From: a virus
Virus record (IMG/VR): IMGVR_UViG_3300044692_000050
Coordinates: 38,341 to 102,340 of that record
DNA length: 64,000 nucleotides
Strand: one strand, 5' to 3'
The notes below the pieces were generated by a model. That model was not told the DNA's origin and did not search any database. It saw only the letters and a program-made list of their open reading frames with translations. Of this stretch, positions 62,539-62,616 are shown piece by piece. Position 1 is the stretch's first letter; each line of letters starts with the position of its first letter. The position numbers and the translations under genes are program-made.

Positions 62539-62616
62539 CCTCCCCGAGATCGAGTCGGTCGCGGTACGGATCGCATCCCAAATGTGAAGTAGCCGCAGCC
62601 TGCGCACCGGGGAGGG
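62539..62616 (-). ncRNA. Y-RNA-like gene 1, lacking a tRNA-like domain
   Basis: About 78 nt. Closing stem CCTCCCCG/CGGGGAGG and the shared blocks GGTGCGCAGG, CGGCTACTTC and GACTCGATCTCGGG. The inside has only a GCGG-C-TAC/GTACCGC stem and a small GGAT-GCG-ATCC hairpin, so the tRNA-like part was lost or never gained. First RNA after the promoter. Confidence 0.75.

Follow-up and report, generated by a model that had tools for sequence, protein, structure and literature searches.

A candidate minimal Y RNA without a tRNA body upstream of a phage Ro60 gene

Why do bacteria and phages keep several different Y RNAs beside one Ro60 gene? It is the Y RNAs that determine the activity of the Ro60 ring, and the locus described here, in which three RNA units stand upstream of a single Ro60 gene and the first of them is devoid of a tRNA body, bears on this question. 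The occurrence of several Y RNAs beside Ro60, phages included, is known or has been proposed (PMC7790460, PMC12282133, PMC7824862).

The Ro60 gene and the RNA units upstream of it

The stretch of DNA analysed (64,000 nucleotides, hereafter the window) is the terminal part of a virus record of 102340 bases, which encodes phage portal and tape-measure proteins. Its features of interest are listed in Table 1. The Ro60 open reading frame encodes a Ro60-type protein: its TROVE domain scores 69.2 bits against a Pfam cut-off of 23, it belongs to PHROG 850 (RNA-binding protein), and its profile matches include D. radiodurans Rsr (2nvo) and X. laevis Ro60 (1yvp). The metal-site motif DxSxS is found, with D363, S365 and S367 invariant in 19 aligned sequences, and T440 and D462 are conserved along with these three residues. 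H192, invariant in 19 of 19 aligned relatives, aligns with H187 of X. laevis Ro60, a histidine that contacts Y RNA, in the profile alignment to the 1yvp chain.

Table 1. Positions of the Ro60 gene, the RNA units and associated elements in the window
Feature	Position	Strand	Basis
Ro60/TROVE protein ORF, 547 aa	60557-62200	minus	Pfam TROVE, PHROG 850, profile matches
Hairpin directly before the Ro60 start codon, Shine-Dalgarno-like GAGGAG in its 3' arm	62204-62239	minus	
Unit 3, Y-type stem with anticodon-arm-like hairpin and T arm	62248-62361	minus	structural scan, covariance model
Unit 3 T arm, GGCGG-TTCGATT-CCGCC	62295-62311	minus	
Unit 3 anticodon-arm-like hairpin, CCTCG-CTGCTAA-CGAGG (GCU)	62316-62332	minus	fixed-geometry test
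Unit 2, Y RNA resembling YrlA; T arm, D arm and closed acceptor-like stem	62378-62517	minus	Rfam, covariance model
Unit 1, short Y-type RNA without tRNA body, 77 nt	62539-62615	minus	structural scan, covariance model, folding
Unit 1 upper hairpin, UCACA-UUUGGGA-UGCGA, 7-nt loop, one A.C mismatch	62571-62587 (hand-counted)	minus	
Sigma-70-like promoter TTGACA-16-TAAACT, 5' of unit 1	62665-62692	minus	1 found, 0.1 expected

Unit 1 displays two traits of bacterial Y RNAs: it adjoins a Ro60/TROVE gene, and its basal stem, which pairs the 5' and 3' ends, is interrupted by a conserved block. The closing stem is of 8 bp (CCTCCCCG/CGGGGAGG); the blocks are GTGCGCA, TACTTC and, on the 3' side, CTCGATCT; and the inner stem (GGCTGCGG/CCGCGACC) contains a single C.A mismatch. 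The molecule folds at -33.6 kcal/mol, with a z of -2.37 against dinucleotide shuffles. Its upper hairpin resembles a small anticodon arm, CA[UUUGGGA]UG, the loop of which equals that of tRNA-Pro(UGG); RNAfold favours pairing these bases slightly differently. Within the 77 nt there is neither a T nor a D nor an acceptor arm, so that unit 1 falls outside YrlA (RF02553) as defined by its tRNA-like domain, and Rfam returned nothing at E <= 1 for it. Nor is it a tRNA gene according to ARAGORN, which calls none in the window.

Units 2 and 3 have the stem and the blocks of unit 1 and, in addition, T arms. Unit 2 aligns with the Rfam YrlA model (RF02553) over its full length (E 8.4e-8); its 45.6 bits fall short of the gathering score, 69, and it is best described as a clear but diverged YrlA relative. 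A preliminary description of this DNA had opposed complete units 2 and 3 to a reduced unit 1; this is too simple, since a clear D arm was not seen in unit 3 either. Two of its other statements stood up well. Both the structural scan and the covariance model find in unit 1 the closing stem and the conserved blocks of its two neighbours, and the short internal hairpin that it reported there does exist and resembles a small anticodon arm. The covariance model (R1) was built on 66 of 79 short units, unit 1 included, and in the 64-kb window it matches only units 1 to 3 below E = 1 (E 1e-11, 1e-11 and 8e-8).

A widespread short class of unit

The survey of related loci started from matches in 57 phage records, 23 plasmid records, 3 bacterial contigs, and 6 and then 319 viral contigs. 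It took in the best 80 of the 319 viral relatives, 11 of the 57 phage records and 5 of the 23 plasmid records; set aside were L027-L029 (repeats of L001-L003), six near-duplicate loci, L007 (the window itself), and L032, L043 and L089, which have too little upstream DNA. Units were detected by a structural scan demanding pairing, a regular-expression parse having overlooked motif variants. The 94 deduplicated Ro60 loci hold 248 units, 219 of which are strict by the filter, or 218 once an overlapping artefact (in L093) is removed by hand. The scan finds 263 units upstream of Ro60 in 100 loci (2.63 per locus), against a background, for 100 loci, of 0.23 per locus when the upstream DNA is shuffled and 0.11 within the Ro60 reading frames. 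The 96 downstream stretches yield 29 units, and a part of these may be genuine. This enrichment over shuffles, together with the specificity of the covariance model, led us to reject a chance hairpin as the explanation of unit 1.

The same arrangement thus recurs in other phages, and conservation is not confined to a single unit: at least one strict unit is present in 89 of the 94 loci and at least two in 76. Similar units also occur on plasmids and bacterial contigs (L019-L026). Five of the 94 loci (L012, L023, L070, L073 and L103) have no strict unit. One of these, the Bifidobacterium plasmid L023, has an R1 match at 4536-4609, just downstream of Ro60, whose reading frame ends at 4521; many tRNA genes surround this match and an RNA ligase gene is nearby. 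In another, L012 (Streptomyces phage JustBecause), an RNA ligase gene (2229-2981) lies directly upstream of Ro60.

Unit length is bimodal. Units without a T arm mostly measure 66-90 nt and those with one 109-162 nt, and a minority combine a long insert with an incomplete or missing T arm. Short units (66-90 nt, no T arm; n=79 in the strict set) are present in 63 of the 76 arrays of at least two units, exactly one being found in 57 of the 76, and absent from 13. They have a marked preference for the first position, which they occupy in 57 of the 76 arrays, when shuffling within arrays gives 27.6 (at most 41 among 2000), and they come last in only 6 (27.7 expected); as the loci are interrelated, these counts do not represent independent events.

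The stems tell a similar story. The nearest stem in another locus is again that of a short unit for 65 of the 79 short units, and again that of a last unit for 59 of the 73 last units, while only 11 of 218 units have the nearest unit overall in their own array. On a tree of the stems, which is weak (about 50 nt) and shows grouping and not a single origin, the short/long label changes 30 times versus 64 after shuffling (lowest 56), and the figures are again 30 versus 64 when the outer stem is removed. The preliminary description had seen in the three units a local duplicated series in which unit 1 had lost its tRNA-like domain. That units 1 to 3 keep a common stem and blocks and diverge in their upper part is confirmed; the loss within a local series is not, given that the short class is widespread and usually first, and that stems from different loci cluster according to class and position.

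Comparison with the closest array, L003, points in the same direction. Identity to the window is 96.1% for unit 1, 53.6% for unit 2, 78.9% for unit 3, 76.5% for the Ro60 DNA and 80-84% for the upstream DNA, the excess of unit 1 over the Ro60 DNA having a binomial probability of 2.7e-6. The figure of 96% rests on one relative, the four-unit array of L001 making for a poor alignment. Unit 1 is nevertheless the best-kept part of this stretch, which speaks against decay. Judged by these sequence comparisons, unit 1 belongs to a short class that is widespread, and is not a broken copy.

In the stretches examined of four loci (L019, L021, L022 and L057), R1 below E = 0.1 finds only short units. Chen et al., in a 2014 article (RNA 20:1715), reportedly found that at least one Y RNA per species is tRNA-like, a rule to which these short-only loci are an apparent exception. 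The same article is said to describe multiple Y RNAs near Ro60 in bacteria and phages, some of them not tRNA-like, and the phage units are alike in being multiple and not all tRNA-like. The order of the classes, the private closing stems, the anticodon arms (see below for both) and the short-only loci go beyond what its abstract reportedly says; the full article may contain some of these observations.

Closing stems, internal-loop motif and anticodon-like arms

Each unit closes on itself. Of six outer-stem positions, 5.84 pair with the unit's own partner strand, compared with 4.26 for a shuffled partner and 3.74 for that of another unit of the same array (141 units found by motif, in 60 loci). 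The outer stems are therefore private, and tandem units need not misfold together. The commonest outer strands are CCTCCC in short units and GTGCCC in last units. This test, made on units found by motif only, is cleaner than the covariation in the short-unit alignment (66 of 79), which is partly circular because the scan selects paired units. In the MAFFT alignment the inner stem was misplaced, so that RNAalifold gave the outer stem alone; the inner stem was counted with a named structure, again with partial circularity.

The internal-loop motif, by contrast with what is seen inside an array, differs between loci (for example GGTGCG, GAAGTGC, GTTGCG and GATGCG). Within an array, the short and the tRNA-like units share their variant: motif identity is 0.887, the null being 0.797 (maximum 0.837 among 2000 permutations; 56 loci). 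Such sharing is expected if one Ro60 binds all the units, and it fits co-evolution with one Ro60, to which the relatedness of the loci also contributes.

In tRNA-like units, TACTTC and the T arm are usually separated by 24-25 nt. This interval was searched for a fixed tRNA geometry (a 5-bp stem with at least 4 pairs, a 7-nt loop with U33 and R37, 4-5 nt, then the T arm), a free best-hairpin search being too loose for tRNA-like units. The geometry is found in 42 of 67 last units (null 2.1, maximum 8 among 500), including unit 3 of the window (GCU), and in 16 of 51 other tRNA-like units (null 0.9, maximum 5). The anticodons of the 42 last units are GCU (11), GUU (11), UGG (4) and others (16); U36 is present in 32 of the 42 and A38 in 41, the latter lying outside the search rule, unlike U33 and R37. 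Among the short units, 35 of 79 carry an anticodon-like hairpin (at least 3 bp, loop starting in the core; null 3.2, maximum 10 among 500), and by the same rule the other 44 have no canonical anticodon-like loop. A rule tolerating one mismatch gives 22 of 79 (null 2.6) and is stricter on some clean hairpins, so that 35 of 79 is our main figure. Unit 1 and its L003 counterpart qualify only with one mismatch (4 pairs, loop UUUGGGA). Unit 1 probably keeps, of the tRNA look-alike part, only the small anticodon-like hairpin.

Permuted tRNA genes occur in algae and archaea, and the order of the arms in the tRNA-like units (anticodon, T, acceptor, D) is reminiscent of them. However, in the phage units a short loop joins the acceptor ends, the Y stem would enter near position 26/27 (our own numbering), and there is no sign of a charged tRNA. 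ARAGORN calls the tRNA-like unit next to Ro60 a tRNA in L010 (2774-2847), L009 (2769-2843), L015 (2704-2775), L011 (2745-2835), L003 (3844-3918) and L026 (2825-2900), and in the records of phages Alone3, GiJojo, VanLee and Frankenweenie such a unit is annotated as a tRNA gene. These tRNAs are probably Y RNAs. By the same token, some of the "tRNA genes" annotated in GenBank next to Ro60 in phages would seem to be Y RNAs.

Possible roles of the short unit

Similar arrangements are documented in two bacterial systems. In the Salmonella rsr-yrlBA-rtcBA operon, the YrlA (RF02553) and YrlB RNAs are likewise small RNAs encoded beside the Ro60/Rsr gene, with a basal stem joining their ends and more than one Y RNA in the operon (PMC7790460, PMC8394870). 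The phage RNAs differ in forming a tight leader upstream of Ro60, with the short one usually first, and many phage-type tRNA-like units have an anticodon arm, which is missing from the Rfam YrlA alignment. In D. radiodurans, Y RNA acts as both lid and tether on the Ro60 ring, tethering Rsr to PNPase in the RYPER (Rsr-Y RNA-PNPase) complex (PMC4726728, PMC8394870). Unit 1, in contrast, has no tRNA body, and the link to PNPase is that of RYPER. The literature on Y RNA, Ro60 and TROVE retrieved by our search, which missed the main papers of the field, describes no anticodon arm in bacterial Y RNAs and no conserved short first unit.

We favour the view that unit 1 is a minimal Y RNA of the bacterial type and, with units 2 and 3, one of three alternative partners of the adjacent Ro60 protein, and hold it to be fairly likely; one protein with three RNA lids, as the preliminary description predicted, is plausible. 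Spacing is tight (mostly 5-37 nt between units, and mostly 25-57 nt from the last unit to the Ro60 start codon), a promoter-like site precedes unit 1, and a Shine-Dalgarno-covering hairpin precedes Ro60 in 59 of 84 loci (null 30.8, maximum 42 among 100). Together these suggest that leader, three units and Ro60 are probably carried by one transcript, which would then be processed. The promoter is not a general feature, a strict consensus being present before the first unit in only 3 of 89 loci. The spacer after unit 1 (window 62518-62538) contains a motif like ACAACUUCA; CAACTT occurs in 33 of 118 inter-unit spacers (null 0.55) and CAACT in 49 (null 3.2), and this motif is perhaps a processing site. 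In the window, a short T run follows the hairpin that precedes the Ro60 start codon, and this hairpin could be an attenuator parting Y RNA from Ro60 mRNA.

Each unit is closed by its own private outer stem and would offer Ro60 the same internal-loop grip. The tRNA-like units would contribute a permuted tRNA body, and unit 1 only its small anticodon-arm-like hairpin. Unit 1 would thus gate Ro60 like any Y RNA, minus a PNPase-type tether, and would have no hold on partners recognising the elbow or acceptor of a tRNA. The phage would then make two or more kinds of Ro60 particle, with and without a tRNA-body handle. A conserved short first class beside tRNA-like classes, apparently for one protein, amounts to a natural experiment with the same grip and a different handle, and the anticodon arm offers a concrete handle for testing. 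We also entertain, as a speculation with a rather small chance of being right, that the actinophage lid set presents anticodon arms (permuted-tRNA lids, mostly U36-A37-A38, and a short first lid, a Y stem with only a mini-arm) as interchangeable baits for readers or cutters of anticodon loops, with the short lid picking out those for which a tRNA body is not required.

The tight leader and the excess of Shine-Dalgarno-covering hairpins would equally suit a unit 1 that acts in cis, as a leader element bound by Ro60 to control its own mRNA together with that hairpin, with no separate small RNA being made. We think this improbable: tandem units with private closing stems resemble separable RNAs, the R1 match of L023 lies downstream of Ro60, and unit 1 is the unit most distant from the start codon. 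It is compatible with unit 1 being a Y RNA partner of Ro60 and does not exclude it.

The anticodon-arm signature, which far exceeds shuffles in tRNA-like and short units alike, lends itself to a more doubtful reading, in which Ro60-bound lids expose anticodon arms (the mini-arm in unit 1) and soak up host anticodon-cutting enzymes or other loop readers. The phage setting suits this, as does the variation of loop letters 34-36 between loci beside a nearly constant A38; a related idea, that the tRNA-like domain of YrlA is a competitive inhibitor of an anticodon nuclease, appears in PMC7790460. That same paper, however, reports no YrlA fragments, which implies that YrlA is uncut. In addition, the anticodons GCU and GUU fit no single known nuclease and there is no known target, the occurrence of such units on plasmids and bacterial contigs goes beyond the phage setting, and PADLOC gives no match for the Ro60 ORF.

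Finally, the absence of a tRNA body from unit 1 and the repeated label changes on the stem tree might suggest that a tRNA-like Y RNA was duplicated and that unit 1 is what remains of a copy in decay, devoid of function. This is very improbable in view of the intact private closing stem, the frequency of the short class, its first position and the near-identity of unit 1 to its L003 counterpart, so much higher than that of unit 2.

Two other genes of the window may be mentioned. A TnpB/Cas12f-like protein is encoded on the minus strand at window positions 54816-56027 (PADLOC Cas12f, 216 bits), and an Rfam Sernc389 match just under the cut-off lies on the opposite strand of this gene (55246-55855). 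Closer to the RNA array, and divergent to it, an Endonuclease VII-like protein is encoded at 62920-63384.
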